Both the position numbers and the translations under genes were made by a program. 64,000 nucleotides of DNA from Vibrio sp. AND4 (GTDB lineage: Bacteria > Pseudomonadota > Gammaproteobacteria > Enterobacterales > Vibrionaceae), in assembly GCF_000171815.1 (NCBI RefSeq), contig NZ_ABGR01000003.1:62001-126000 (forward strand). Reading direction: 5' to 3'. The notes below the pieces were generated by a model that was given only the letters and a program-made list of their open reading frames with translations, was not told where the DNA came from and searched no databases. Every line of letters begins with the position of its first letter. Position 1 is the first letter of the stretch. Of this stretch, positions 28,311 to 45,915 are shown in pieces.

Positions 28311-30812
28311 TTACCGATACGGCAAATACTCATCAGCATGAGCTGCTGTTTGAACTTTCTTACGTGCGGCTATTTGGTCTCTCTTACGTGCAAGCGCATC
28401 ACCACTAAGTGGGGTATAAGGCTGACCAGTCGCATCACTCTTGCCTTTTTCTGCCAGTTGAGTGACCCACAAGTTGAAATCATGCTGTTGCGTGTTATCC
28501 AATATAGCGTTGATACGCGCAAGGTTATCAAACATCACTTTATCACCCAAGACAGCTTGACCCTTTGGATTCATACATTGCAAAATCTCTTCAAACTTAT
28601 GCCAGCTGTAGGTACTCTTTCTCAGCAGCTTATATATCGCACTCTCTTGCTGCTCATTGAAACTAAACAAAAATTCTTCAATTAAGGTATCGAGCATAAT
28701 GCCAATTGCTTCCGGTAGCAGCTGTTCAAACGATACTCCGGATAACGTCGACTCATCAAGAATGCGATCCGCCAGCACTAATGCTTTCTTTTGACGCTCT
28801 CCAATTCCATTAAAATCCTTCATCCACTCATTTACTTGGTCCTCTCCACTTAGTACTATCGTCTCAAATGTTTGACTTGGATCAGTAATCAAATCTCTAG
28901 TAAAAGTAATTAGTGTTGAGTTGAGCAGATACTTATATGCTTCTTCACTTATATTGCTCAAGTAACGATAATCGACATATTGCAATGCCTTTAAAATGAC
29001 AGTGACGAGGTCCCACAGCTTTTCAGCATCGACAAGTACACCAAAACCACCACCACCACCACCGCCCCAGACAAGCTGGCCGGAACACATTAAGTAAAAT
29101 TTACCACCAGTGAGTGCGAGTTGAAAGTCTGCATCAAAACCAGCGCCCACGCCGATATTTGCTGCTAAGCTGACCTTTGCAAGCGAATCAAAACGGGCGG
29201 ACTTTCCCCCTCCCGGAGCTTGCCACTCTATTGCTCCGGCTAATTGGCCACTCACATTGCCTCCGGCAAAGCCTTGAACTTTGAATCCCACCTGTCCCTT
29301 TGTCGATGTGGCCATATTAATTCGAGGGGTAAATAGAACGCCTACACTTTCGCCGTTTTCGTCATCCCTAGAGCCCAGAGTCGTTTCCCCCTCCATTGCT
29401 AATCCAACAAAGCACCCAATGGTTAGCGCCCCATTGAGGCGAAAGCAACCAAATGAATAAGTGGCATCATCTCCATTAGCATCGCGATAATTTAACCGAG
29501 CAGCAAAACCACTTTCATAAGGTAGGAACAAATTCGCTTCTGCTTTGGCTTCAAAAAACGATATGCTTGCGTCAGCACCGATGCCTACATCTATTTTGCC
29601 TTTCGCAGGTTCAAAGTTACTAGCTGCGGTCGCCTGAGCTCCCCATCGAAAAAGCTGCGCCTCACCGCTGACGGCAAAAATGGCATTACCTTCATACTCC
29701 AATAAGTTGTGAGTCGTCTTCCACTCAGCCAATTTATTACCCTCGGCTTTCCACTGCGCTAACTTCGTCGCAATTTTAAGTTTATTTTTTCCCTCTTTAA
29801 TATCTTCGGCAACGGCGTTACCAAAACCTTTGTAATCTTTTTGCTCAAGGGCCTTCATCGCATTTGTATGTTTGTAGGAGCGTTGCCAACGTTTTTCCTC
29901 GCGCTCATGAAAACGTGAGCGCATATATACATAACGACCTTGTTTTACAGAATAGACTTCAGCAACGTGCGTTTTGACCTTACGTGTTTTGAGTTTCTTT
30001 TTTTTCGAATTGCCTACGGGGTTAACTTTTGTAACCGCCTCCTCATTTTTTTTGCTTTCCGCCTGCTCCTCTAAAACGCGATAATAATTAATTTCATTTT
30101 GAATATTTTCTAAGACTTGTTTTCTTAACGCTTCTGTCGAGCCTTCAGAAATGAAAGTGGTCTTATGATACTTTTCAACAAACGCTTTACGATCCTCTAA
30201 TGATTTCTTAGATGACCTCGCCCGCTGTAAATTGAAGTTAGTTGGAGGCTGAGTTTCTTTTATTTGTGCCACTCGTCGACTTGCAGGGTTATTCTGAACC
30301 TCTTCCGTCGCAAACATTTCGGCATAGTTTGCATCAGCAAGCCAAGCTTCTTTCTTTCGTGCATGTGCCTCCATCGCCTCCCGAGTGATGTTGCTCCCTT
30401 TTGGTGCAGATTCTAATAGTGTCTTGTAGTTATCCAAAAGAAGGTCTGTCTTTTGACTTTCTTGCTCAAGTTCCTTGGCTGCTTTCTCATCTAGTAACCA
30501 ATATTCAAAGGGACTATCCCCAGTTAAGAAAATAACATCATGAACATCAATAGGTTGGCAAAGAGGGCCTGAGCATAAGGGGCTGTCTGAAACTAACTCT
30601 CGCATATCTGAAACAGGCTCTACTGGATGCTTAGGCTCGACAACTTCTGTTGGTGTATCGTCAGGTAGCGTAAGTACCTCTCCGACACGAATAAAATCAG
30701 GGTTCTCTTGGTATTGAGGGTTCAGCTCAAGCAGCGTCGTGAAGTCCACCTCTTGCTCAATCGCGATTTTAAGTAGAGTATCGCCGCCTTTGATGGTGTA
30801 AGTTTGGCTCAT
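28311..30812 (-). CDS. LysM-headed T6SS cargo protein, candidate antibacterial effector
   Basis: 833 residues from ATG 30810-30812, whose A overlaps the TAA of the adaptor gene (TAATG) with GGAG upstream. Residues 3-49 are a LysM fold (YTIKGGDTLLKIA...NPQYQENPDFIRVGEVLTLP). Then come a charged helical region with a basic patch (KKKKLKTRKVKTH, ~285-300), a Gly/Ala-rich beta section ~375-590 ending in seven glycines, and a helical C-terminus with no recognised enzyme motif. VgrG, then DUF4123 adaptor, then cargo is the standard order for T6SS effectors. The killing mechanism is not evident; the beta-rich part could act on membranes. Confidence 0.72.
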   Translation of the reverse strand: MSQTYTIKGGDTLLKIAIEQEVDFTTLLELNPQYQENPDFIRVGEVLTLPDDTPTEVVEPKHPVEPVSDMRELVSDSPLCSGPLCQPIDVHDVIFLTGDSPFEYWLLDEKAAKELEQESQKTDLLLDNYKTLLESAPKGSNITREAMEAHARKKEAWLADANYAEMFATEEVQNNPASRRVAQIKETQPPTNFNLQRARSSKKSLEDRKAFVEKYHKTTFISEGSTEALRKQVLENIQNEINYYRVLEEQAESKKNEEAVTKVNPVGNSKKKKLKTRKVKTHVAEVYSVKQGRYVYMRSRFHEREEKRWQRSYKHTNAMKALEQKDYKGFGNAVAEDIKEGKNKLKIATKLAQWKAEGNKLAEWKTTHNLLEYEGNAIFAVSGEAQLFRWGAQATAASNFEPAKGKIDVGIGADASISFFEAKAEANLFLPYESGFAARLNYRDANGDDATYSFGCFRLNGALTIGCFVGLAMEGETTLGSRDDENGESVGVLFTPRINMATSTKGQVGFKVQGFAGGNVSGQLAGAIEWQAPGGGKSARFDSLAKVSLAANIGVGAGFDADFQLALTGGKFYLMCSGQLVWGGGGGGGFGVLVDAEKLWDLVTVILKALQYVDYRYLSNISEEAYKYLLNSTLITFTRDLITDPSQTFETIVLSGEDQVNEWMKDFNGIGERQKKALVLADRILDESTLSGVSFEQLLPEAIGIMLDTLIEEFLFSFNEQQESAIYKLLRKSTYSWHKFEEILQCMNPKGQAVLGDKVMFDNLARINAILDNTQQHDFNLWVTQLAEKGKSDATGQPYTPLSGDALARKRDQIAARKKVQTAAHADEYLPYR

Positions 30813-31405
30813 TAGGTGTTCACTCCTTGCCAGTGAGCTAAGATTGCGTTCATGGTTTGTGTTTGCGACTCGGTTAAATCCCAAATCATTGGAATGTTCT
30901 GGCGTTGATCTAACGTGTGCCATGAAGTGTCTAACCATTCACGATCAAACCATTGAATGCGATTTAGTAATGGAAAAAACTGCTGCCTTTGGTGCACATT
31001 CATGGACCCCATGAGAGTGACAAGTTTACGAGGTTCATAAAAACGCATCATAGCTTGTGCCTTTCCATACTGTACAATGAGTCGATCTCGTAAAGACGAA
31101 GCAAGACTTTCTGTATCTATTGAACTTACGGCAACAATAAGGCAACCAGAAGGCGTCACTTCTAAATGGCCTTTTACCGTATTTAGCTTCTGTTTATCGG
31201 TAACTTCCACCAATAGAGGGCCATTACTCACTGCTGCGAATCGAGTTTTGGCAAAGAGTGGAACAGCTTCACTTTCAGGAAACAAGTCCTCCCATTCTGG
31301 CCATAACATGGGCTCAAACAGCACATAAAGCTTTTCGTCAGACGACGGGAACAGTGGTGGTGTAAGTTGAATGTCCCATTCAGGGTTTAACTGTGCAATT
31401 GACAT
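30812..31405 (-). CDS. DUF4123 T6SS effector adaptor (Tap/TEC)
   Basis: 197 residues from ATG 31403-31405; the start lies inside the vgrG 3' end (19-nt overlap) and the stop overlaps the cargo start by one base. The pattern LYVLFEPMLWPEWEDLFPESEAVPLFA...GPLLVEVTD...GCLIVAVSSIDTESLASSLRDRLIV...RFYEPRKLVTLMGSM is DUF4123. Such adaptors load a specific effector on the VgrG tip and are not themselves secreted. Tight overlaps mean the three proteins are made together. Confidence 0.88.
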   Translation of the reverse strand: MSIAQLNPEWDIQLTPPLFPSSDEKLYVLFEPMLWPEWEDLFPESEAVPLFAKTRFAAVSNGPLLVEVTDKQKLNTVKGHLEVTPSGCLIVAVSSIDTESLASSLRDRLIVQYGKAQAMMRFYEPRKLVTLMGSMNVHQRQQFFPLLNRIQWFDREWLDTSWHTLDQRQNIPMIWDLTESQTQTMNAILAHWQGVNT

Positions 31406-33645
31406 GTTCTTCCACTCCCACAATCACAAATTTCTTGAAGTAAACTGCCTTCTTCAACCAATCCGGCGTAAGACGCAGGTGACATCAAAGGCATAGGTTT
31501 CATTGCCAGCGATGGTTTCTTAGGCCTTCTTGTAGAAACGCTGTTGTTTCCGTTCGCAGCGCCACCCGGGTTGATGTCCACTTTGCCGCCCTTTACAGCG
31601 ACACTACTTGCACCATCAATCATGATTGAAGTGCCGTTTAAATGGATGTTGCCACTGCTTTTGAGTACTAGACTGGAAGCACCAACTAAGACTCTGATTT
31701 CATCAGCTGAAATAACCGATGTCTCTCCGTCAGAACGAATGGAAGTATTGCCATTTACTTCAACACTGAGGTTATTACCTATGCTCTGTGTATCGTCTGC
31801 ACCAACATCAATAGAGCGTGACGCCATAACGACAGTATTGTGCTCTTGTCCAATCTCCGTTGAGTCATCTTTGCCAATCAAGGTACGGCGATTTTCATCA
31901 ATATATAAATCGCGGTTGTTGGTGATTTTCTCTGATTCATTCGCGTTGTAAGTAACGTGAACATCTTTCTCTACCTGCTCCATAAAGGTTTGCTTGGTAG
32001 TGGAGGTTTTATGCCCATCAATCACTTCTTTACGGTCGCCTAAGATGTTGTTTTCTTGATTGTTGCCGACCTTCAGCTCTTCATCATTGCCGATGTCTCG
32101 GTAACGGTTATTGAGCACTTTGGTTTTCATGTCTTTTTGAGCGCGGAAATGTACCTCTTCTTGGTCATTTTCATCCTCAAAATACATTTCGTTGTAACCC
32201 TCCGCCTTATGGCTTTGGGTTCTGAAAACCGTACGCGTTTTGTTTTCTGGTAATGGGTATGGCGGCGTGTGTAAACCGTTGTACACCGCGCCCGTCACTA
32301 GTGGACGGTCTGGGTCGCCTTCTAGGAAAGTCACAATCACTTCATGCCCAATACGAGGTAGATAGACGGCTCCCCAGTTGGGCGCTGCCATTGACTGACT
32401 GACGCGCAGCCAACATGAGCTGTGTTCATCGCTTTGCGCATAGCGGTCCCAATGGAACTGAACTTTGATGCGACCATATTCATCGGTGTAGATTTCTTCG
32501 CCCGCAGGACCAACCACAACCGCAGTTTGAGGACCATCAACGACAGGTGAAGCCATTTTAGGCGCCCGGAATGTTACGTCTCGTGGTAAGCAGACAAACT
32601 GATTGTGATAAGTCGTAGGCTCATCGCTCGATTCTTCTTCGTGTACACGAGGGTTAAAGCCCGTGTGCATCACAGTCAACATGAGATAATCACGGTTGAT
32701 GTTTGAGCGAGGGTGCTGGCTGATATCAAAACTGAAACCGGCGGTGAGACGCATGATATCGCTTGCCGCTTCAACCTGATGGCTGTCCACCGTGTATTCA
32801 GACATCCACTCCGTTACACGCTGCTGGCCTAAATCCGGGGTGGTGTAGCGACCAAGATAGTCGTAACGCTGCAAATCAAAGTTTGGTCCTTGATCGGCGC
32901 ACTTACCCTGCGGGATTTTCGGCGTGAGATAATTGTAATCACCGTAACTGACTAGGCCAGTGCGAGTTCGATTGATTTGCTCTAGGTCGAAAATGTGTTC
33001 TCGGTCTGACGTGCCGCCACCTTGGGCATGATACACCACCGGACCTAAGTAAGAGGCATTGATAGGCGAACTGACAAGCGCTGGTATCGCATCATTACTG
33101 TCGACAATCACCATGGTATGCCCAGCAGTGCCGTGCTCAAAGTAATACCAAAGGCCATGCTCTGCCATTAATCGCTGCACAAAATGCTGGTCATTCTCTC
33201 GGTATTGAAGAACGTACTCTTTCGCCTCATATTGCGCTGACAGCTCAAAGCGGTAATCGCTCATGCCTGCATCATCAAAAACCTGACGAATAATGTCAGG
33301 CGCCGCTTGCATCTGAAAGATACGACAGTCTTGGCGCTGAGTAAGAAACCAGAGATTTGGGACTAAGGTGATGTGATACCGCGAGAAACGACGACCAGTG
33401 CCTAAATAGCGCAGCTCAGAGATGCTTCCGTTAAACTGGCGAGCAGTGCCCATGCCTTGACCAAACAGGCTCAAGACGCCCATTTTTCGACTTAACGCAT
33501 CAAACGAGATTGCATCGTTATCCGATAACACCGTCAGGTTCATTTCAAAGGGAGAAGAGACCGCTTCCGTTATGCGAAAGCTTTCTACTTTAAATGCACC
33601 GAGAAAACCAGGAACATAAAAAGTAAAGTTTACATCATTAACCAT
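31387..33645 (-). CDS. vgrG: VgrG, T6SS spike protein
   Basis: 752 residues. The gp27-like N-terminal part (ITEAVSSPFEMNLTVLS...YRENDQHFVQRLMAEHGLWYYFEH), OB-fold signature (YTDEYGRIKVQFHWDRY, SCWLRVSQSMAAPNWGAVYLPRIGHEVIVTFLEGDPDRP) and gp5-like triple beta-helix repeats are all present. The tail after ~690 adds a short Pro-rich and Cys-rich end (CDCGSGRTC) that probably docks the adaptor or PAAR. Core T6SS genes are absent, so this is an auxiliary (orphan) vgrG module using a sheath encoded elsewhere. Confidence 0.95.
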   Translation of the reverse strand: MVNDVNFTFYVPGFLGAFKVESFRITEAVSSPFEMNLTVLSDNDAISFDALSRKMGVLSLFGQGMGTARQFNGSISELRYLGTGRRFSRYHITLVPNLWFLTQRQDCRIFQMQAAPDIIRQVFDDAGMSDYRFELSAQYEAKEYVLQYRENDQHFVQRLMAEHGLWYYFEHGTAGHTMVIVDSNDAIPALVSSPINASYLGPVVYHAQGGGTSDREHIFDLEQINRTRTGLVSYGDYNYLTPKIPQGKCADQGPNFDLQRYDYLGRYTTPDLGQQRVTEWMSEYTVDSHQVEAASDIMRLTAGFSFDISQHPRSNINRDYLMLTVMHTGFNPRVHEEESSDEPTTYHNQFVCLPRDVTFRAPKMASPVVDGPQTAVVVGPAGEEIYTDEYGRIKVQFHWDRYAQSDEHSSCWLRVSQSMAAPNWGAVYLPRIGHEVIVTFLEGDPDRPLVTGAVYNGLHTPPYPLPENKTRTVFRTQSHKAEGYNEMYFEDENDQEEVHFRAQKDMKTKVLNNRYRDIGNDEELKVGNNQENNILGDRKEVIDGHKTSTTKQTFMEQVEKDVHVTYNANESEKITNNRDLYIDENRRTLIGKDDSTEIGQEHNTVVMASRSIDVGADDTQSIGNNLSVEVNGNTSIRSDGETSVISADEIRVLVGASSLVLKSSGNIHLNGTSIMIDGASSVAVKGGKVDINPGGAANGNNSVSTRRPKKPSLAMKPMPLMSPASYAGLVEEGSLLQEICDCGSGRTCQLHS

Positions 33646-36042: not shown

Positions 36043-36076
36043 AAAAATCACCCCCTACGACAAGGGAGTGATTTTT
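36043..36076. terminator. Bidirectional terminator between LysR and telA-like genes
   Basis: AAAATCAC-CCCT pairs with AGGG-GTGATTTTT; A- and T-tracts on either side make it work in both directions. Confidence 0.85.
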
Positions 36077-36088
36077 CGCTGGTTCAGT

Positions 36089-37147
36089 TTATAAGGTTTG
36101 TTTAAGCGCTTGTTTAAGTTCCGCTTCTGCCTTTTCAATCACTTGCTGAGCCTGCTCACGTTGCGCCCTGCCTTCCTTCACTCGCGAGAGTGTATTGTTC
36201 AGGGTTTCTATCGTCAGTTGATTTACGGTTTCAAGAGAATCAAGGTCAAGAATGCCACGCTGGTAGTTGGCGGCAATTTGCTCTTCTAATGCTTTTAGTT
36301 TCTCGGCATTTTGTACATATTGCTTGTTGGTGTAATCCTTGACCGCGCGCGTCACCTTCAGGGCTTTTTCTTTCTCGTAATTTGAAATCGCGATCAAGAA
36401 TTGGCGCTTCCACAATGGGAAGGTGTTGTGGACGATATCTTGAATGTCTTCCATCAACATTTTATTGCCTTCTTGAGACAATCGAATCTGAGGCGCGGTT
36501 TGGATAGCAGCAAGGCGAGTGAGCTCAAGGTTGTGCACGCGCTTTTCTAAACGAGCAACGGCTTGAGTCGCATCACGGTATTTCTGGGCGTCCAACGCAT
36601 CACCACTTTGCTCAGATTGTGCCAGTAAACTTGGCAGCACATTCTGAGTCAACTGATTCAACTTGTATTTGCCAGCCGCAATGTACTGCTCCAACCCACC
36701 AAGTAGTTCAAGATTATGATCGTAAAGCGTATCGAGCTGGGTAATATCATGAGCTAACTTCATTTCTTGTGCTTCTAAGCGTCCAGAAAGCTGCTCTAGC
36801 TGACTCTTCACAGAATCAAAGCTGGCTGAAAACTTTTTGAAGGAATCGAAAAGCTCTCCAACCAAAGGAAGTCTCGACAGCAAGCTGGTTTTGCCTAAAT
36901 TAGAGAATTCTGCGCTGTCCATGGAAGATACCATCGCATGCAGAATATCACCCGCTTCACCGCTATCTCGAACACGTACTTGTTCCAACACTTCATCAGA
37001 GAAAGTGGTAATTTTTTCTAGCGCCTGTTTACCAAAAGTGATCGTCGCGACACTGTCAAAAGCATCAAATTGTTCTGCGAGTGCGACGATTTGAGGAGTC
37101 ACTTCTACCTCAAGTAACTGATGTTCAGAATTCATCAATTCGGTCAT
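36089..37147 (-). CDS. TelA-like toxic-anion resistance family protein
   Basis: 352 residues, nearly all helical. Pieces such as SLLSRLPLVGELFDSFKKFSASFDSVKSQLEQLSGRLEAQ, LYDHNLELLGGLEQYIAAG and NTFPLWKRQFLIAIS are those of the TelA family (named for tellurite resistance in plasmid operons). Members appear in stress and membrane-associated Ter-type clusters; the actual biochemical role is unknown. It is the last gene of a five-gene leftward block and starts 15 nt after the PLD-like stop. Confidence 0.88.
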   Translation of the reverse strand: MTELMNSEHQLLEVEVTPQIVALAEQFDAFDSVATITFGKQALEKITTFSDEVLEQVRVRDSGEAGDILHAMVSSMDSAEFSNLGKTSLLSRLPLVGELFDSFKKFSASFDSVKSQLEQLSGRLEAQEMKLAHDITQLDTLYDHNLELLGGLEQYIAAGKYKLNQLTQNVLPSLLAQSEQSGDALDAQKYRDATQAVARLEKRVHNLELTRLAAIQTAPQIRLSQEGNKMLMEDIQDIVHNTFPLWKRQFLIAISNYEKEKALKVTRAVKDYTNKQYVQNAEKLKALEEQIAANYQRGILDLDSLETVNQLTIETLNNTLSRVKEGRAQREQAQQVIEKAEAELKQALKQTL

Positions 37148-37162
37148 GGGAACTCCCTATGT

Positions 37163-37867
37163 TTATGACGGCTTATGACAGGGAAACTTCTGCCATAACG
37201 TTTCAAATTGTCGTGAGAACGCAGAAACAAACCTACGATCATCGGTAAGCGTTATATCTTCTTGATTGTACTTTGACGCGCTGCGTGTCCAGTTAAAGCT
37301 GCCATTGATCAACCTTTGTTGATCGAATACCGCGAACTTATGGTGCATATGGTATCGCGTTGTATCAATTTTGACCGCAACGCCCTGTTTTGCAAGATAT
37401 TCGATATCACTGCCTTTATCGTACATTTTGTCGTTGTCGGTGACGATCCGGACCGCCACGCCTCTTTTGTGCGCCGCAAGGATCTGATCGGTAAGGTCGT
37501 TATCCGCGATGGTGAAAACGCAAATATCCACCGAGCGACGAGCCAGTTTCAGCTGCTCAACGATACCGGATGCACAAGCCCTTCCCGGAGAAAACCAGCT
37601 CGAAGCATTATCCGAGAAGTTCTCACTCATCACATTGTCTAAGACTTTGACCACGCGCTCTAACCAGCGGACTAAAGCGGTAGCATCTCCCTGACTTTGT
37701 ATTTCTTGCTGCACCAGTTTAAAGGCCAGATTACGCAGGAACGAGCGGTCTTCATGACTTAACACCGAATTTTGTAACTCCGATTTAAGTTCTCTGCGCT
37801 CGCTATCATCAAGACGGTAATCCTTTATCGAGGCCTCTAACCAAGCTGACCATTTTTGTCGATTCAT
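37163..37867 (-). CDS. Phospholipase-D-like phosphodiesterase, single HKD motif
   Basis: 234 residues. The C-terminal ~145 residues form one PLD domain with the HxK(x4)D motif (His175, Lys177, Asp182) followed by NGSFNW. With a single HKD motif the active enzyme would be a dimer, as in Nuc endonuclease or mitoPLD/FAM83 relatives. The N-terminal ~90 residues (helical, KDYRLDDSERRELKSEL) look like a small stress-associated helical module. Substrate could be DNA/RNA or phospholipid. Its ATG directly abuts the ATPase stop (TAGATG). Confidence 0.85.
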   Translation of the reverse strand: MNRQKWSAWLEASIKDYRLDDSERRELKSELQNSVLSHEDRSFLRNLAFKLVQQEIQSQGDATALVRWLERVVKVLDNVMSENFSDNASSWFSPGRACASGIVEQLKLARRSVDICVFTIADNDLTDQILAAHKRGVAVRIVTDNDKMYDKGSDIEYLAKQGVAVKIDTTRYHMHHKFAVFDQQRLINGSFNWTRSASKYNQEDITLTDDRRFVSAFSRQFETLWQKFPCHKPS

Positions 37868-40800
37868 CTAGTTTTTCTCCTGATCATGACGACCAAAACG
37901 AGCAACGTGTTGATTCAGCATGGCAAGTTGCTGCACCACCTGTCCTGCTCTATCGTCGGAATCACCCATCATTTGCTGACGCTGATAACCTTCTTTGATT
38001 TCAGACCAACGAGAGCTTTGCTCAGCGGTCATATCACCGCGTAACTCAGCGAGCTTGAGTAGGTTTTCCTCGGTACCCGCTGCCAGTGTCTGCGCTTCGC
38101 CCTGATAATGGTCTTGAAGCAGCGTGTTCATCTCTTGGTCAGTCATCACCGATGATATTTTTTCCGCCAGCTTGTTCATATTTCGATATGAGCCTTGCAG
38201 CTTAAATGGCGGCTCAACACGATATTGATCCGCGGTTGCAGCTGACTTGATGTACTGCTGATTCACTTTCAAGACGATTTGTTGCGCCATGATCAATTTT
38301 TGCAAGGTCGTCACGATCTCGCCAGACTCGATTGCAGAGTATGAGTGGCTCATCTCACTGAGTGCGATATTTTCCCCTTCTGCCATTCTGACAAAACGGT
38401 ACAAATCGTTCAGATCGCGTGTTGCTAAGGGCGCGAGAACACTGTTGGATGTCAGCGAGTTTTCGATAAAGCTTAAATCGAAGATTGCTTTTTGATCAGA
38501 CAGCATGTCACCGAGGTTGTATATGTCCGCTCGGTTAGACAACATATCTGGGATCCGGAACGCTTCGCCCGTTTCTGTGTAAGGGTTACCCGCCATCACG
38601 ACCGCAAACTTTTTGCCGCGCATGTCGTAGGTTTTGGTTTTCCCTTTCCACGTACCTTCGATTCGACGCGTACCATCACACAGTGAAATGAACTTCTGTA
38701 AAAACTCAGGATGGGTATGCTGAATATCATCCAAGTAGAGCAACACGTTATTACCCATTTCAAAAGCGAGGTTGATCTTTTCAATTTCACGCGCAGCGTT
38801 TTGATCTGGTGCATCCGCAGGATCAAGGGATGTCGCTTGATGACCAATAGACGGACCATTGATCTTCATGAACACCAAACCTAATTTGTGGGCAACATAC
38901 TCAATTAACGTCGTTTTACCGTAACCAGGAGGAGAGATGAGCAATAGCATCCCCATTAAGTCGGTGCGCTTTTTGTCGCCTAACGTGCCCATTTGCTTGG
39001 CAAAGTTGTCACCAATAAGAGGTAAATAACTCTCACTGATGAGTTTATTGCGCACAAATGACGTCAATGGACGAGGTTTAAACTCGCTCAGGCGGAACTC
39101 CTCTTTTGCTGAACTCAGCAACTGAGTACGTTGGGATAAATAGGCCTCAAAATTCGGAACCACCGAGCTGCGGTGATGTTCGTTCCTTTGGATAAAATCA
39201 TCCAGAACGAGCTCTAAACTGCCCTTGTTAATTCGAGCATGCTCACCCAACAGCCCCTCGACATGACACAGCAATGAAAAGTCGACGCTGCTTAACCTTT
39301 GCTCGGACAGAGTATTCACCACAGCAACCGTTGCTGCCTCGTACGCGAATGCCTGACCATATTGCTTTTTCGCAGTGTACGCACTTAACCACTGCTGGTG
39401 ATCGTTAAATGACTCAGCAAAACTGAGCGATTGCGGTTGCCACCCTAAGCTGCGTCTGAATTGCAAATAATCCTCGCAAAGGGAAAGCGAGTCCTGACTC
39501 ACTTCGATTTGCCAATCACGCTGACCTAATAACTGTGCGAGGTAGTCAGCGGCTTCATGTTGCTCACCGCCAAGGGAATCAACCAACTGTTTTTGCAGTG
39601 CTTGATATGCTTGTGACGCATTTAAATGCTCTCGCAATAACTTTGCGTTTTGCGCCTGTTGTTGATAGTGCTCGATTTTCTGCGCATCTTGTTCCAATAA
39701 CCATAAGATGGCTTTCGAGCGAGCGGTTTGGCTGTAACGCAATAACCCAGCTTGCTGATAAACGGGCAGCACTTTGCGCAATATGTTAACCGCATCATGG
39801 TCGTGGATGCCTTTGACGTACCCTTCTCGATAACGTGGCGCCGCAAAGCGTTGAACCAGTTCGTTCAATTTATCTTCTTTCAACGCTTCATAAAGCTTGT
39901 CTAAGCTGTGTCCATCTTGATTGATAGACGCTTGATGCAAGATTAAATATGCCAGATATTCTGCTCGATAAACGTCTTCACTTTCTGAGGCCACATCCAA
40001 ACGAGAAACGGTTTGCAGGTCGAGAAATGCACTGTCTTCCACCGTTTGGTAAAAGTCCGTGCCTGAGATGTGCAGTGCCAGTTCACCACTTTGGTCGACC
40101 AAGCTGAGGTCAAGTGGCTGCTGGTTCACGCTAAACCTATGTTTGCCCAAGCGCAGAACCGTACCACCCTTTTCGAAGATGTCTTGGTTATCTCGTAATG
40201 CACGCATGGATTGGTCTTGAAGCGACTTCAATTTAGAGTCGACACTGTCAGCTTTCACACTGTCGCCAAGCTCACGAATGGTCTGAGACAACTGTTGCAG
40301 CTTAAGCACCATAGCGTCAGTCGCAAAGTAACTGTTTAGCCCAGCAACATCATCGAATCGCTCCACGCGCTTTTCTATGCTGCTCATGGTGACGTTCGCC
40401 GCTTGGAGCAAGTTTTGAACCCGGCGCTGTTGGCCCGCGATGAGCTGCTGCTTGTGGTTATCCAACGTTGATTGGATCTCATCACGCTTAGAATAAATCT
40501 CGCTTAAGAACTGGTCGAAATCCGCGAAGCGCGACTCTAACTTATCCAGTTGTCCAACGAGCTTCGCAAGCTGAGTATCACAATCATCTGGTGTTAACGC
40601 TTGCTCCATAGCACTGCTGACCGATTGGCTGAGCAGCTTAAATTGAGCACTAAATTCAGCTTGGGCCTCTTCACTTTGTAAGCCTTTAGATTTCGCTCTG
40701 AGTTTCGCTGAAGCAGTATTAAGCAGAGACGTGACCTCTGTGGTGAGATCTAAGATCCGAGTGGCTTGTGTCGGGTCTTCTGTTTCGATGTCCGTGACTT

Positions 40801-42730
40801 CTTCGGTGACTATTTGCAGCTCATGACGGAGCGTTTCCACCTCTTCGCTAAGCTTTTGAATCTCCGCCGTTTTACTCACACCTTCGAGCTGTAATTCAAT
40901 TTTTTGAATTTGCTTCTTGAAGGGGGTGTAAGCTTTTTCGTCCTGAAGAAGGGTAAGCAAATGCAGGTTAAGTGACTCGCGCTGCGCCTGTAACTCTTCA
41001 AACAAGCGATCAACCTGTACCTCGTCAATGTAATGCTGCTGACGGAGCGACATGGTCACGCCAACTTGCCCCTTCACATCACTCAGTAAGCTCAATAGCG
41101 TGTTCGCTTGTTCTTTGGGAGCCAATTTGATTTTGCCAATGAGCTCGGAAACCGCCAACTTTTGCTCTTCAAGACTGCTTGCAGCCTGTTTCTGTAGCTG
41201 TTGTACCTTGGCAAACTCATCGATGATCTTATCGGCGGTATCCATGAGTTCATCAATCGCACTGCCTATCCCGCAAGCGTAATCGTGATTGAGCCAAGTA
41301 TAGTGATCCAGCGTTGAACGACACTGCTTTATCAGTACTTCATAGGCTGCTTGAGTCACCTCTTCACTCTGCGCTAGTTGGCAAATTGAGAGAACCGAAG
41401 ACAGCGCTCGCACCAACTCCGTATTACCAAGGTTGAACAGTGGACTGCTGCCTTGGGCTTGCGCATTAAGCTTGGCGTAGTGCTCTGGCGTAGAAAATGG
41501 CGTGTCCCAAATTCTCATTGGATGAATGGTCGACGCTTCTTCATTCTCCGACAGTTGAAACACTAACCAGCGGCCATCTGGGTACAAACTGTAACCGTGG
41601 CTTTCCATTGGTGCTTCAAACTTCTTTTCAATCAAGTTGTAGGTATACGCAATGTAATGACCTTCAACGGCGTTAAAAAAGATATAAAGAATGTCTTCAC
41701 CATTCGGTGACGTAATCTGCTGGAAGAACTTGAGCTGGTGAGATTCAAACGCAAACTGTTTATCTTCACCATTGGATAGAACATAACCTTTGGCATAGAG
41801 CACACCATGGTCTTCAGGCAAGGTTTTGGCGCTTCGCTCTAGCGCATCTGCCCTCACCACGGACTGAGTCACTGAATTGTACAGGAAGTATCGAGCGTGT
41901 TTTTCGCGGTTTGGTTTTATTCGCAGGGCGATCAAATCTCCGACAAACGCGTAATCGATGTGCGCATCAGCAACACTTTGATGAGGATCTTCAACCTCTT
42001 CTCGGTAAATACCTTTCCCATCTTTGGTGTTGTCTTCCACCTTGATGGTTAAGTCCCCACCGACACATTCAACAAACAGTCTATCTTGAATAGACACGTG
42101 CGGATGATCGCCAAGCACGTGGTCATCTCGCGTTGTTGGGATCCAATCAAAGTCATGCTGAGGAACGCTGGTCAGTGCATTTTGCCCCAAAGAATCAATG
42201 TACTCGATCGAATGAGCGTTGATCTGAAAACGAAAGACTTTTCTGTCTTCAGGCCGCATACCAATTTGAAAGGCGATATACAGCGTGCTTTCTTGACGAG
42301 AGATTTGAGAAAGCTTTGCGTCTCGATAATAAGTAAACAGTTCCGTCAATTCATGGGTAAAACGGGAATCGGATAAAAAACTGGATTCGAGTGGAAGGCG
42401 CTCTACACGGAACGTACCATCATTTTCATGGAGATGATAAAGCCCGAAGACATCATCAAGTGAAGGGGTCGCTTTCATCCCAACCTGCACATGATAGCCG
42501 AACAATAAATGCTGGTTTACCTGAGCCATATCGATTGGAATGCACTTAGCATCAGTTTGAACGTTGACCTTACCGATCAACGTAAAGTCTTGGCCGCCGA
42601 ACGTCTCTTGGCGTTGTTGATTGAAAGATTGGGAGAGAGACTTTAGCTGGCTGCCTTGCTGCAACAAACGCGTCTTTAAAACATCGTATGCACCAGCATC
42701 ACTCACCGCTTTTTGAGTCATATCTGACAT
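37868..42730 (-). CDS. Giant AAA+ ATPase with coiled coils (so-called DNA repair ATPase)
   Basis: 1620 residues. The first ~480 are a beta-rich region (FTLIGKVNVQTDAKCIPIDMAQVNQH...), residues ~500-900 are long coiled coils, and ~1260-1450 is a single AAA+ module: Walker A SPPGYGKTT (~1268), Walker B LLYLDDIQ (~1330), sensor 1 VVMAGNP (~1378), and an arginine-containing MLSNRADI segment. Proteins of this layout are labelled DNA repair ATPase without direct proof. Its place between a flotillin and a PLD protein points to membrane-linked remodelling. Third gene of the block. Confidence 0.82.
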   Translation of the reverse strand: MSDMTQKAVSDAGAYDVLKTRLLQQGSQLKSLSQSFNQQRQETFGGQDFTLIGKVNVQTDAKCIPIDMAQVNQHLLFGYHVQVGMKATPSLDDVFGLYHLHENDGTFRVERLPLESSFLSDSRFTHELTELFTYYRDAKLSQISRQESTLYIAFQIGMRPEDRKVFRFQINAHSIEYIDSLGQNALTSVPQHDFDWIPTTRDDHVLGDHPHVSIQDRLFVECVGGDLTIKVEDNTKDGKGIYREEVEDPHQSVADAHIDYAFVGDLIALRIKPNREKHARYFLYNSVTQSVVRADALERSAKTLPEDHGVLYAKGYVLSNGEDKQFAFESHQLKFFQQITSPNGEDILYIFFNAVEGHYIAYTYNLIEKKFEAPMESHGYSLYPDGRWLVFQLSENEEASTIHPMRIWDTPFSTPEHYAKLNAQAQGSSPLFNLGNTELVRALSSVLSICQLAQSEEVTQAAYEVLIKQCRSTLDHYTWLNHDYACGIGSAIDELMDTADKIIDEFAKVQQLQKQAASSLEEQKLAVSELIGKIKLAPKEQANTLLSLLSDVKGQVGVTMSLRQQHYIDEVQVDRLFEELQAQRESLNLHLLTLLQDEKAYTPFKKQIQKIELQLEGVSKTAEIQKLSEEVETLRHELQIVTEEVTDIETEDPTQATRILDLTTEVTSLLNTASAKLRAKSKGLQSEEAQAEFSAQFKLLSQSVSSAMEQALTPDDCDTQLAKLVGQLDKLESRFADFDQFLSEIYSKRDEIQSTLDNHKQQLIAGQQRRVQNLLQAANVTMSSIEKRVERFDDVAGLNSYFATDAMVLKLQQLSQTIRELGDSVKADSVDSKLKSLQDQSMRALRDNQDIFEKGGTVLRLGKHRFSVNQQPLDLSLVDQSGELALHISGTDFYQTVEDSAFLDLQTVSRLDVASESEDVYRAEYLAYLILHQASINQDGHSLDKLYEALKEDKLNELVQRFAAPRYREGYVKGIHDHDAVNILRKVLPVYQQAGLLRYSQTARSKAILWLLEQDAQKIEHYQQQAQNAKLLREHLNASQAYQALQKQLVDSLGGEQHEAADYLAQLLGQRDWQIEVSQDSLSLCEDYLQFRRSLGWQPQSLSFAESFNDHQQWLSAYTAKKQYGQAFAYEAATVAVVNTLSEQRLSSVDFSLLCHVEGLLGEHARINKGSLELVLDDFIQRNEHHRSSVVPNFEAYLSQRTQLLSSAKEEFRLSEFKPRPLTSFVRNKLISESYLPLIGDNFAKQMGTLGDKKRTDLMGMLLLISPPGYGKTTLIEYVAHKLGLVFMKINGPSIGHQATSLDPADAPDQNAAREIEKINLAFEMGNNVLLYLDDIQHTHPEFLQKFISLCDGTRRIEGTWKGKTKTYDMRGKKFAVVMAGNPYTETGEAFRIPDMLSNRADIYNLGDMLSDQKAIFDLSFIENSLTSNSVLAPLATRDLNDLYRFVRMAEGENIALSEMSHSYSAIESGEIVTTLQKLIMAQQIVLKVNQQYIKSAATADQYRVEPPFKLQGSYRNMNKLAEKISSVMTDQEMNTLLQDHYQGEAQTLAAGTEENLLKLAELRGDMTAEQSSRWSEIKEGYQRQQMMGDSDDRAGQVVQQLAMLNQHVARFGRHDQEKN

Positions 42731-42742
42731 GCTAATACCTAT

Positions 42743-42770
42743 AAATCCCGCTTACAAAGAAGCGGGATTT
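42743..42770. terminator. Internal hairpin between yqiK-like and ATPase genes
   Basis: AAATCCCGCTT and AAGCGGGATTT form an 11-bp stem. The better T-tract is on the plus strand; on the transcribed minus strand only ATTTATA follows, so partial attenuation or an RNA processing site is more likely than full termination. Confidence 0.5.
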
Positions 42771-42788
42771 TTTAGAGAGAATGAAAAG

Positions 42789-44876
42789 TTAAGATTTATC
42801 GCTGGTTGTCGTATTTAGCGAGCTTTGAATTTTCTTCATCAGCTCCGCAGCACCACCTTGTGAATTGAGTAAACTCGCGAGCGCGACATTACTTAAATCA
42901 CTGCTTTTCAGTTCTGTGCTCTCTAACACGTCTTTGATGTCTTGTGGCAGGCTTCGGTTGCCATTCACATACTCTGAAACCAATGGGTTGAGCACCTCTG
43001 ATTCATTAAACTTCGCATCAACGAGGGCCGAATCCATGATGGTGCGACGGATTTGCTCCATGCCTTCACCACCGAAGAGACGAATATCCGCTTTAGATAA
43101 GGCTTCGCCAAGAGCCTGAGCATTCGCTCCAACCACAGTTTTCTGAGCATCAATACGCGCCAATTCCAGATCTTTGTCTTGTTGCAGCTGCATAACCCAC
43201 TTATCGTGCTCGCGGGTATGGTCGTCGTATTGCTGAGCGGCCTCAAAGCGAGCGGTTTGTGCTTCTGCTTCTGCCAAGCCTTTCGCTCTTAGCGCTTGAG
43301 CTTCCGCTTCACCCGCACTTTGCAAGATGTAAGCTTCTGCTTCGCCCGTTTCTTTGATCGCCAATGCACGTTCGCGCTCGACTTCCACTTCAGCTAAGCC
43401 TGTCGCACTGATCATTTCTTTTTCTGCTTGTGCCATACGTTCTTTCGCTGCTGCTTCGCGGTCTTTCGCAACAAACTCAGCTTCCGCACGCTTAGTCGTC
43501 ACCACCTGATCCGCTTCTGCTTGACGTGTCTTCACTGCTAGCTCGTTTTCTGCATCGCGCGTTTTGATTTTCAGCTCAGCTTCGTTCTCGATTAAGACGC
43601 GTTCAGAGCGTTCGCGAGCGGCCTCTTTTTCTGCTCGAGCGGCAACCAGAAGTTCGATTTGCGCAGATTCCGCTATCGCCTCTGCTTCAGTCAATTTGAT
43701 GCGCTTGTCTCGGTTAACGCGCTCATTCACGCGCAAGTTTTCGGTCTCTTCTTCTTCTCGAGCGATCTTGCGTTCAATTTCAACACGTTGGGAGCGAGTT
43801 TCTGCGACAGTCTTCATCGCTTCTTCTACTGTCGTCTCTTTCTGCATTTCTCGCTCAGCAACTTCGGCGGAGGTGCGAACTCGCTCAGTCTCAACAGATC
43901 GGTTGAGCTCTTCTTGTTGAATTGCCACTTGGCGTTGGTTTGCGATGCGCGTCATCTCAACTTCCATCTCAACACTTTCGCGCTTCTTAGATACTTCTTC
44001 TTCAGTTTCAAGTTCCGCTAGCTTGGTGATTCGCTCATATTCTTCACGTTTCTCCGCAGCTAGGGCTTCCTCTTGCGCTTTAATAATATCGATTTCACGC
44101 TGAGTACGGGCAATACTCTCTTTTTCTTGCTTATCAAGCTGTAAGCGGTTTGCTTCCGCTTCAACGTTTTTCTTCTTGATCGTTGTGCGTTCATCCTGAC
44201 GAATCGCGTTGGTTTCCGTATTCTTTTGCGCTGTGATGGCAGAGATCTTACGGATACCTTCTACGTCAAGAATGTTGCCCGGGCTATGAGCGTCCAGCGC
44301 GGTTTGGTCAACTTTATCGATTACCACGTCGTAGATTTTAAAGCCGTCCATTTCGCTACCGATGACTTCAACAACGGCATCACGGAAAGCACGACGATTC
44401 GTTAACAGCTCTTCAAATTCAAACTGTTTTACTGCCGTTTTAAGGGCTTCGGAGAACTTAGGCTGGAAGTGCTCCTTTAGGCGATCTAGGTTAGAAGCAT
44501 CGTGAGCAGTAAAGAGTTTTGCCACTCGGACAATGTCTTCTTCTTCATGATTCACACCAATGTAGAAATCAACTTTAAGGTCAGCACGAATGTTGTCTCG
44601 GCAATGGAGACCCTCATACTCTTCACCCTCTTGGTCTTTTCGACCACTTCGAACAACAGAAATCTTTTTTCGAGTAATATCCATAAACTCAAATCTGTTG
44701 ATTACTGGCCATACAAAGGTACCAGTTAAGGACGCGCGTGTGGCGTGCAATCCATTGACAATTAATGCATCGCCTTCCCCTCGAACCTTTTTATATCGGG
44801 TGGTAAGAAAGACAAGAAGAATCAAAAAAATCCCGATACCAATTCCAAGGAATATCAGACTTGGAGAAATCTGCAT
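42789..44876 (-). CDS. yqiK: YqiK-type flotillin (SPFH) membrane scaffold
   Basis: 695 residues. One N-terminal membrane helix (LIFLGIGIGIFLILLVFLTT, ~8-27), then the SPFH/band-7 domain (~35-215: YKKVRGEGDALIVNG...NIRADLKVDFYIGV...IYDVVIDKVDQTAL), then ~350 residues of Glu/Ala/Arg-rich coiled coil with repeated EAEAxA units, and a conserved flotillin C-terminus. Flotillins organise fluid lipid microdomains and scaffold other proteins. The YqiJ-like gene upstream is its usual partner. This places the ATPase and PLD-like proteins on a membrane platform (inference). Confidence 0.92.
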   Translation of the reverse strand: MQISPSLIFLGIGIGIFLILLVFLTTRYKKVRGEGDALIVNGLHATRASLTGTFVWPVINRFEFMDITRKKISVVRSGRKDQEGEEYEGLHCRDNIRADLKVDFYIGVNHEEEDIVRVAKLFTAHDASNLDRLKEHFQPKFSEALKTAVKQFEFEELLTNRRAFRDAVVEVIGSEMDGFKIYDVVIDKVDQTALDAHSPGNILDVEGIRKISAITAQKNTETNAIRQDERTTIKKKNVEAEANRLQLDKQEKESIARTQREIDIIKAQEEALAAEKREEYERITKLAELETEEEVSKKRESVEMEVEMTRIANQRQVAIQQEELNRSVETERVRTSAEVAEREMQKETTVEEAMKTVAETRSQRVEIERKIAREEEETENLRVNERVNRDKRIKLTEAEAIAESAQIELLVAARAEKEAARERSERVLIENEAELKIKTRDAENELAVKTRQAEADQVVTTKRAEAEFVAKDREAAAKERMAQAEKEMISATGLAEVEVERERALAIKETGEAEAYILQSAGEAEAQALRAKGLAEAEAQTARFEAAQQYDDHTREHDKWVMQLQQDKDLELARIDAQKTVVGANAQALGEALSKADIRLFGGEGMEQIRRTIMDSALVDAKFNESEVLNPLVSEYVNGNRSLPQDIKDVLESTELKSSDLSNVALASLLNSQGGAAELMKKIQSSLNTTTSDKS

Positions 44877-44897
44877 AGCTGCTCCTTAATTTTCTAG

Positions 44898-45497
44898 CTA
44901 CTGATTAATAATGTAATATTTTTTTTGTTTATTGAGAGAAACGATCACAACGTCGCTTCCATATTCAATGGGAAGATCGGATTCCAAAACCCGAGCGTCT
45001 AATAGAAATTCACTGCTGTTATGCTGAACCATAATTTCACCGCGTTGACTGTTCACCTCACAACTATGAACTCTTGCTTTCATTCCAATAAAATCAACCT
45101 TAGCGAAAGCTTTACTTTTATCAAAAAGTGGCGCCAAAGGGCTCAGTAACTTAGCGCTTATATACAAGGATAAGTAAAAATTAACTGGAATAGAGACAAG
45201 CTCCGTTACCGTTAAAAGCACGGAACTGAGGTGTTGCCCTAGGAAAGATGACGAATAAAACGACAAAGTAGTGGCGAAAAAGAAACTGACACACAAACCT
45301 ACGGCCAAAGGCACTTTAGATAATATCGGTGGCAGTAACAGTCCACCGCTAAATAAGCTGCCTGACTCGAATAAATCGATATCTGCAACAGCCACATCTA
45401 CCACATTGAACACGAGATCGATGCACATAATTAGGAGAAGAAAAACAAAAGGAACAAAGAACACATTTGTCGGGAAAGACAGTAATATATCAGTCAT
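44898..45497 (-). CDS. yqiJ: YqiJ-like membrane protein with OB-fold C-terminus
   Basis: 199 residues from ATG 45495-45497 (a TTG four codons earlier is possible; neither has a strong site). Three hydrophobic segments (VFFVPFVFLLLIMCIDLVF; VGLCVSFFFATTLSFYSSS; TELVSIPVNFYLSLYISA) are followed by ~65 residues with an NfeD-like OB fold (FIGMKARVHSCEVNSQRGEIMVQ...YGSDVVIVSLNKQKKYYIIN). This is the YqiJ pattern, normally paired with YqiK flotillin. First gene of the five-gene block. Confidence 0.8.
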   Translation of the reverse strand: MTDILLSFPTNVFFVPFVFLLLIMCIDLVFNVVDVAVADIDLFESGSLFSGGLLLPPILSKVPLAVGLCVSFFFATTLSFYSSSFLGQHLSSVLLTVTELVSIPVNFYLSLYISAKLLSPLAPLFDKSKAFAKVDFIGMKARVHSCEVNSQRGEIMVQHNSSEFLLDARVLESDLPIEYGSDVVIVSLNKQKKYYIINQ

Positions 45498-45915
45498 TAC
45501 TAGCTGCAATATAAAATGGTGAGAATCATCACGTTATGGTAATGGATCCTTAATTAAGTTTATTTGCTTACCTTTTCTTTTGTGACTGACATCGCCAAAT
45601 TTAATACCACCTGCATCACCAATCACTAAATCAACCAATACTAATATTTACAGCATCACATTATTGATTGATTTAAAATACAAATTTATTAGTAAAATGC
45701 TCTTTAAGGGCAGTATCAATATTGAATTAGAATATGTAAGACGCCATTTAATATTATTTATTCTTATCGCACTCGTTTTTTATTTAACCTTTCCTTTTTT
45801 GCCATTAGTTCCCTTTCCTCAAACAATCTAATGTCGATGATAAGGGCGCTCCCCCCTTTCTTTGCGGCTGACGACTGGTTAAAATGGACAAAATTGCGCA
45901 CAAACTGGATAGAAC
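45498..45915. other. Divergent promoter gap of the five-gene block
   Basis: 418 bases between the YqiJ-like gene and the DUF2058 gene. AT-rich in 45600-45800; no gene, repeat or clear operator was found. Promoters for both directions must lie here. Confidence 0.45.

Follow-up and report, generated by a model that had tools for sequence, protein, structure and literature searches.

In order to characterize a candidate membrane-associated gene block in Vibrio sp. AND4, we analysed a 64,000-nucleotide (nt) stretch of contig NZ_ABGR01000003.1 (positions 62,001 to 126,000, hereafter the window), in which five consecutive leftward genes specify a YqiJ-like membrane protein, a flotillin, a large ATPase, a phospholipase D (PLD)-superfamily protein and a TelA protein. 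The block sits between a DUF2058 gene and a LysR gene, and its features are as follows (positions are those of the window).

45498-45915, no strand: divergent intergenic region of 418 nt with the DUF2058 gene at its far side; presumed promoter region
44898-45497, minus strand: YqiJ/YuaF-like (NfeD2-type) membrane protein, 199 aa from its ATG, named mainly from gene order and hydrophobic windows, its profile match being non-significant
42789-44876, minus strand: flotillin/SPFH protein, 695 aa, with a single N-terminal hydrophobic segment, named from a Band_7-matching orthologue (L005) and gene order
37868-42730, minus strand: ATPase, 1620 aa, with DUF3686 (residues 29-477), DUF7902 (599-682) and a C-terminal AAA+ domain (1262-1385), from Pfam and Walker motifs
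37163-37867, minus strand: single-HKD PLD-superfamily protein, 234 aa, with a conserved N-terminal region of ~80 aa, from Pfam, its motif and relatives in the PDB
36089-37147, minus strand: TelA (PF05816), 352 aa, without a hydrophobic segment, from Pfam
36051-36067, minus strand: terminator-like hairpin and T run, about 20 nt beyond the TelA stop

The five open reading frames (ORFs) occupy the minus-strand positions at which an earlier, sequence-only reading of this DNA had placed them, with gaps of 21, 58, 0 and 15 nt in the order YqiJ-like protein, flotillin, ATPase, PLD and TelA. The first gene starts at the ATG at 45497, and an in-frame TTG lies at 45509. Sites with a hairpin and T run showed no excess over shuffled sequence in the region (nine found, shuffle mean 11.7), and no sigma-70-like site was found on the minus strand of 45498-45915.

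At E ≤ 0.1, neither the flotillin nor the YqiJ-like protein of the window has a Pfam match. The flotillin takes its name from an orthologue in the same gene order (L005, 30 % identical), which matches Band_7 (PF01145) at 9.3e-11, and from the record names of other orthologues. For the YqiJ-like protein, the name follows mainly from gene order and from two hydrophobic windows (residues 3-43 and 52-82); added to these are the record name 'DUF1449' of one orthologue, for which no Pfam match was found at 0.001, and a non-significant match to the YuaF structure 2k14 in a profile search of the PDB (E 0.71). By gene order and the Band_7 match of L005, a YqiJ/YuaF-type protein thus stands beside a band-7/flotillin protein, as in the operon group described by Ravi et al. 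(2024).

The ATPase, which shares 95 % identity with its V. jasicida counterpart, matches DUF3686 (1.5e-159), DUF7902 (2e-17) and AAA_5 (AAA_5/AAA, 6.9e-08). All 73 aligned ATPases carry the Walker A motif GYGKT, and all 73 have a Walker B motif of the form hhhhDD, where hhhhDE is usual. Two copies, one with the gene split into three ORFs (L048, genome G399) and one with a single in-frame TGA in its DUF3686 row (L019, genome G007), are broken genes or assembly errors.

The PLD matches PLDc_2 (PF13091, 7.5e-31) and contains exactly one H-x-K-x4-D (HKD) motif, of which H175, K177 and D182 are invariant across 15 aligned rows; judged by this motif, it appears to be of the single-HKD type (MitoPLD/Zucchini/Nuc). 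Its closest solved structures in a profile search are mitochondrial cardiolipin hydrolase (4.9e-35), Nuc (3.4e-15) and NucT (9.9e-12), and Zucchini is the Foldseek top match of a modest model (predicted local distance difference test score, pLDDT, 60.8). MitoPLD/Zucchini, which share the single HKD motif and are the closest solved relatives by both profile and Foldseek, differ in that the window protein lacks a hydrophobic anchor segment and has its own ~80-aa N-terminal region. Both lipid hydrolase and ribonuclease roles have been reported for Zucchini/MitoPLD, so that the substrate may be of either kind. The N-terminal region gave weak DUF533 matches in four of eight members (best 0.036), and an 81-aa fragment gave Pfam matches at chance level, one of which (0.058) is to a helical toxin-domain model. 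A TerB-like domain, prompted by a D-x-x-L-D-x-x-E start, was rejected (hhalign probability 1.5-6 %, no support from a PDB search). At two loci (L016:6708-7262 and L079:6651-7229) a rhomboid-protease gene, overlapping the ATPase end by 4 nt, lies between ATPase and PLD, and at four loci of a single genus (L088-L091) the PLD is followed by an ORF of 935-1064 aa, the distance being about 140-190 nt at L088:3774-6644, L090:13398-16241 and L091:13337-16531.

The TelA protein belongs to its family by a match at 5.5e-78 (262.8 bits against a cut-off of 30) that spans positions 3-331 of the 332-position profile. This family is named for tellurite resistance, and we know of no established mechanism for it; besides YaaN, it includes YceH as a further TelA/YaaN member. 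Other Vibrio TelA copies (L103-L106) stand beside a second, divergent TelA-like gene.

DUF3686 was detected in 8 of 398 genomes of a phylum sample, 10 of 369 of a class sample, 30 of 295 of an order sample and 21 of 227 Vibrio genomes, the samples partly overlapping in genomes. The ATPase was also present in 12 records of a plasmid collection, from Pseudomonadota, Deinococcota, Actinomycetota and Bacteroidota; two such records, L012 (NZ_CP050465.1) and L011 (NZ_OL790812.1), are 2-4 Mb long and probably chromosomes, so that plasmid carriage of these copies is not established. In a phage collection no match to the ATPase was found, and pattern scans of viral contigs, a narrow method, found neither the ATPase nor viral carriage of TelA.

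Gene order around the ATPase was compared at 73 loci, counted from 76 annotated. In 72 of these the gene immediately upstream of the ATPase is the flotillin gene, and in 69, spread over four phyla, the YqiJ-flotillin pair is upstream; because of this, the YqiJ-flotillin-ATPase association is more than chance. The other partners are less constant, with PLD downstream in 26 loci, TelA downstream in 23 and a same-strand PspA gene upstream in 24, and the complete five-gene set occurs in 18 loci, all from Vibrionaceae. The sequence-only reading had made its case turn on a neighbourhood conserved outside close relatives; such conservation extends to the trio and to the PLD, which are found more widely, but not to the full set.

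The distribution of TelA and PspA was set against an ATPase phylogeny (a quick IQ-TREE run under LG+G4, with Shimodaira-Hasegawa-like approximate likelihood ratio test support only and a midpoint root). There, the window ATPase falls within a 24-locus clade that has a support of 100 and a long branch, and that comprises loci from Vibrio, Photobacterium and one genome of another family (G1016). TelA is downstream in 23/24 loci of this clade versus 0/49 others, whilst a same-strand PspA gene is upstream in 0/24 versus 24/49, and the two never occur together (0/73). Whole-genome Pfam searches gave a similar picture: TelA and DUF3686 are no more than about 6 kb apart in 21/21 Vibrio genomes versus 1/41 others (0/13 and 1/28), and PspA lies within that distance of DUF3686 in 0/21 Vibrio genomes versus 6/13 others. 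The PLD gene, by comparison, follows the ATPase, directly or one gene on, in 7 of the 49 loci outside the clade, and the ~80-residue N-terminal region is common to all six of these seven proteins that were aligned; the PLD gene is therefore an old or recurrent component.

Within the ATPase, divergence of the TelA-associated clade is concentrated in the N-terminal half. Based on 150 random pairs for each comparison, identity between this clade and the rest is 0.40 for the DUF3686 part and 0.25 for the first coiled coil, versus 0.56 and 0.38 among the rest, whilst for the AAA domain the values are 0.74 and 0.78, a drop of about 0.04 that is matched by drops of just about 0.04 in the C-terminal part and in residues 861-1010. 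This pattern would fit an N-terminal half that has changed its partner, although the long branch alone could explain part of it.

The most direct view of the block as a unit comes from a single site. Counting from flank clusters, with representatives named, we found that in 12 of the 21 Vibrio genomes mutS flanks the block on one side and cinA-recA on the other, with alaS also on the cinA side in 11. A search for cinA in 80 Vibrio genomes found it in 79, and the best 30 of these 79 loci were read. In 25 of the best 30, including that of the window genome (L132, G000:C129), mutS adjoins cinA divergently, and 23 of these 25 junctions have 99-178 nt between aligned ends; in two of the best 30, the TelA end lies 75-88 nt before cinA. 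In three more of the best 30 loci (L124, L129 and L134) neither mutS nor TelA was found within the 1.5-kb flank of cinA, and these may carry other inserts nearby. From the block-bearing sites (12/21) and the block-free ones (25/30) together, it follows that at this site the block is present or absent whole, with the YqiJ and TelA genes as its ends. No other evidence speaks as strongly as this pattern for the genes, including TelA, forming one unit, and it bears out the sequence-only reading on this point, in that the block is both conserved and transferable.

A closely related operon set has been published. Ravi et al. (2024; PMC11237479, section 19) describe operons of YqiJ, flotillin and an AAA+ ATPase, either with CesT-PspA or shorter, and with PLD in some Proteobacteria; the shorter, PspA-less operons are more widely distributed, and in the authors' view the set is a machinery for membrane dynamics under envelope stress. 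The window shares with this arrangement (CesT/Tir-PspA, band-7/flotillin, beta-propeller AAA+ ATPase and YqiJ/YuaF, with or without PLD) a YqiJ-like protein, a flotillin, an HKD PLD and an AAA+ ATPase whose N-terminal part is long. It differs in the absence of a CesT-PspA dyad, the PspA matches of the window genome being on other contigs, in the TelA gene at its end and in an ATPase from a clade whose N-terminal half has diverged. The published ATPase has an N-terminal beta-propeller and coiled coil; here AAA+ and DUF3686 were matched, and DUF3686 may correspond to that propeller. The main text of PMC11237479 mentions neither TelA, tellur, YaaN nor Vibrio, and our literature search, which covers subscription papers poorly, found no TelA operon with flotillin, AAA, PspA, XpaC or Ter partners in titles or abstract openings. 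Thus, the earlier statement that the set matches no characterized operon no longer holds for four of the five components, which were described together in 2024, and stands for TelA only, which is the new element relative to the published operon. The E. coli yqiJ-yqiK and B. subtilis yuaF-yuaG pairs (NfeD2-SPFH2; PMC2636767) resemble the first two genes of the block, and differ in that no ATPase, PLD or TelA is named with them in the accessible part of that source.

We read the block as a TelA-type version of the operon published for YqiJ, flotillin and an AAA+ ATPase, that is, a cell-envelope (membrane) stress module inherited and transferred as one unit, and put the probability of this at roughly 60 %. 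Support comes from the gene order in 69/73 loci, the published PspA-linked operon, the PLD outside the clade, the TelA/PspA distribution, the behaviour as a unit and the divergence of the ATPase N-terminal half, as well as from literature on sigma-W, Listeria and SPFH-PspA systems. The B. subtilis sigma-W regulon includes pspA-ydjGHI, yuaF-floT, xpaC-yaaN and yceC-H (PMC3498285), YaaN is termed TelA/YaaN (PMC12791056), a Listeria telA-homologue mutant shows a 4-fold increase in nisin sensitivity and a 2-fold increase in tellurite sensitivity (PMC12791056, PMC11765107), a Lactococcus study of membrane-protein overproduction saw both telA1 and an XpaC-like gene raised (PMC3139573), the SPFH protein YdjI is required to bring PspA to the membrane (PMC8581546), and S. 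aureus flotillin stabilizes unfolded proteins in membrane domains (PMC11222466). The Gram-positive TelA/YaaN proteins (B. subtilis sigma-W, Listeria LiaR) share the family name, with a PF05816 signal in B. subtilis, and differ from the window protein in adjoining XpaC, outside any flotillin-ATPase operon.

The role of the operon is inferred from its partners and relatives, and could be pictured as follows. The YqiJ-like protein and the flotillin would, by analogy with their families, form an oligomeric scaffold at the inner membrane, on which the ATPase may dock via its N-terminal DUF3686/coiled-coil half, so that its single C-terminal AAA+ domain, in which the ATP-binding motifs are observed, could remodel or extract clients. 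TelA, predicted to be all-helical and lacking a hydrophobic segment, would act as a stress-responsive partner, as PspA might in the versions of other lineages; the complementary distribution of the two suggests this. Finally, the PLD may hydrolyse a phosphodiester at the scaffold site, for which the closest solved relatives, where both activities are known, make a phospholipid such as cardiolipin a likelier substrate than nucleic acid. Of the two roles offered by the sequence-only reading, membrane repair or phage defence, membrane stress is the better supported. A compact, transferable operon in which TelA is linked to a large AAA+ ATPase, a PLD and a flotillin scaffold provides a testable partner set for TelA, and adds to the published phage-shock-protein (PSP)-linked operon a version that has TelA and lacks PspA.

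Several observations weigh against this interpretation. The ATPase tree carries long-branch warnings, one of them on the attachment of the TelA-bearing clade, and that clade has exceptions, with one locus (L004) lacking TelA and 5 of the 24 lacking PLD. The complementarity of TelA and PspA is one evolutionary event: TelA changes twice on the tree and PspA eight times, and an independent-pairs test of their exclusion is powerless. A PspA match occurs somewhere in all 34 genomes searched, and PspA therefore need not be replaced; moreover, the two genes occupy different ends of the operon, TelA the downstream end and PspA a position upstream of YqiJ. Homology of TelA to PspA was considered and found no support in a profile comparison with shallow alignments (hhalign probability about 0.1 %), and the AlphaFold model of TelA, built from three near-identical rows, is too poor (pLDDT 46.9) for its fold to be compared with PspA/ESCRT-III. 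A further-reaching reading, of low probability, is that TelA is a functional stand-in for PspA, i.e. a membrane-stress polymer or helical adaptor on the flotillin scaffold whose assembly would be driven or dismantled by the DUF3686 ATPase, as ESCRT-III is by Vps4, with a cardiolipin-type phosphodiesterase trimming lipid. If true, this would assign a defined machine to the TelA 'tellurite resistance' family, which has long been unexplained.

Anti-phage defence, in which a membrane-anchored sensor would work with an AAA+ ATPase, and a nuclease-type PLD would destroy the nucleic acid of phage or host, is less likely still. In its favour are the patchy spread of the block (21/227 Vibrio genomes) and its coming or missing as a whole at a single site, and the PLD does match the nuclease models NucT, DrmC and DpdK, though below the curated cut-offs in NCBIfam. 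Yet PADLOC 2.0.0 matched the PLD only (22 models, best DrmC at 3.3e-11), the other four proteins of the block having none at E ≤ 1, and the ATPase, as described above, was not found in the phage collection or viral contigs. Nor does the neighbourhood look rich in defence genes, with the reservation that no background rate was measured: none of ten window neighbours has a PADLOC match at 0.001, and 97 neighbours of other loci (chosen out of 152 listed, leaving out mutS-site loci and some near-copies) gave, at 1e-10, 18 PADLOC models with one member each (13 cyclase, 4 phospholipase-effector and 1 PDC-M42C), which look like one CBASS (cyclic-oligonucleotide-based anti-phage signalling system) locus. 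With neither a system-level match nor a defence-rich neighbourhood found in these scans, the earlier suggestion of a phage defence role is not supported. The sole hint towards a nucleic-acid role is a weak match of the PLD N-terminal region to the Mokosh MkoB model (1.7e-6), together with the large ORFs that follow the PLD in the four loci of one genus; two of these ORFs were scanned (L088 and L091), with Mokosh MkoC/MkoA as best named PADLOC models, and one post-PLD ORF scanned by Pfam is an AAA_11/AAA_12 helicase.

We consider it improbable that the block is a DNA repair or nucleic-acid processing unit, even though DUF3686 proteins bear the name 'DNA repair ATPase' in Pfam and in sequence records, RuvB is the PDB entry that the ATPase profile matches best (weakly, 0.0032), Nuc and NucT are among the PLD relatives, and the block lies between mutS and recA in 12 Vibrio genomes. 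Our literature search found no assay behind that name, nor any paper with 'DUF3686' or with 'DNA repair ATPase' together with 'flotillin'. Furthermore, two of the five proteins bear hydrophobic membrane-type segments, and the mutS-cinA junction is block-free in 25 of the best 30 cinA loci, the window copy of the block being located elsewhere. Least probable of all is a Ter-type metal oxyanion (tellurite) resistance unit, for which the membership of TelA (PF05816) in the block speaks, but no TerB, TerC, TerD or StiP match was found in the block or in 13 window neighbours scanned, whereas another Vibrio TelA copy (L103, the one scanned by Pfam) does neighbour StiP, PRTase_2, C-C_Bond_Lyase and TerD, and beyond the clade, at 49 loci, TelA never stands beside the same ATPase, so that the core works without it.

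Elsewhere in the window, at 28311-33645 on the minus strand, three genes stand in a row, namely a VgrG gene (PF05954 and Gp5 parts), one for a DUF4123 protein and an ORF of 875 aa that contains a LysM domain, a set that looks like a type VI secretion vgrG-adaptor-cargo arrangement.

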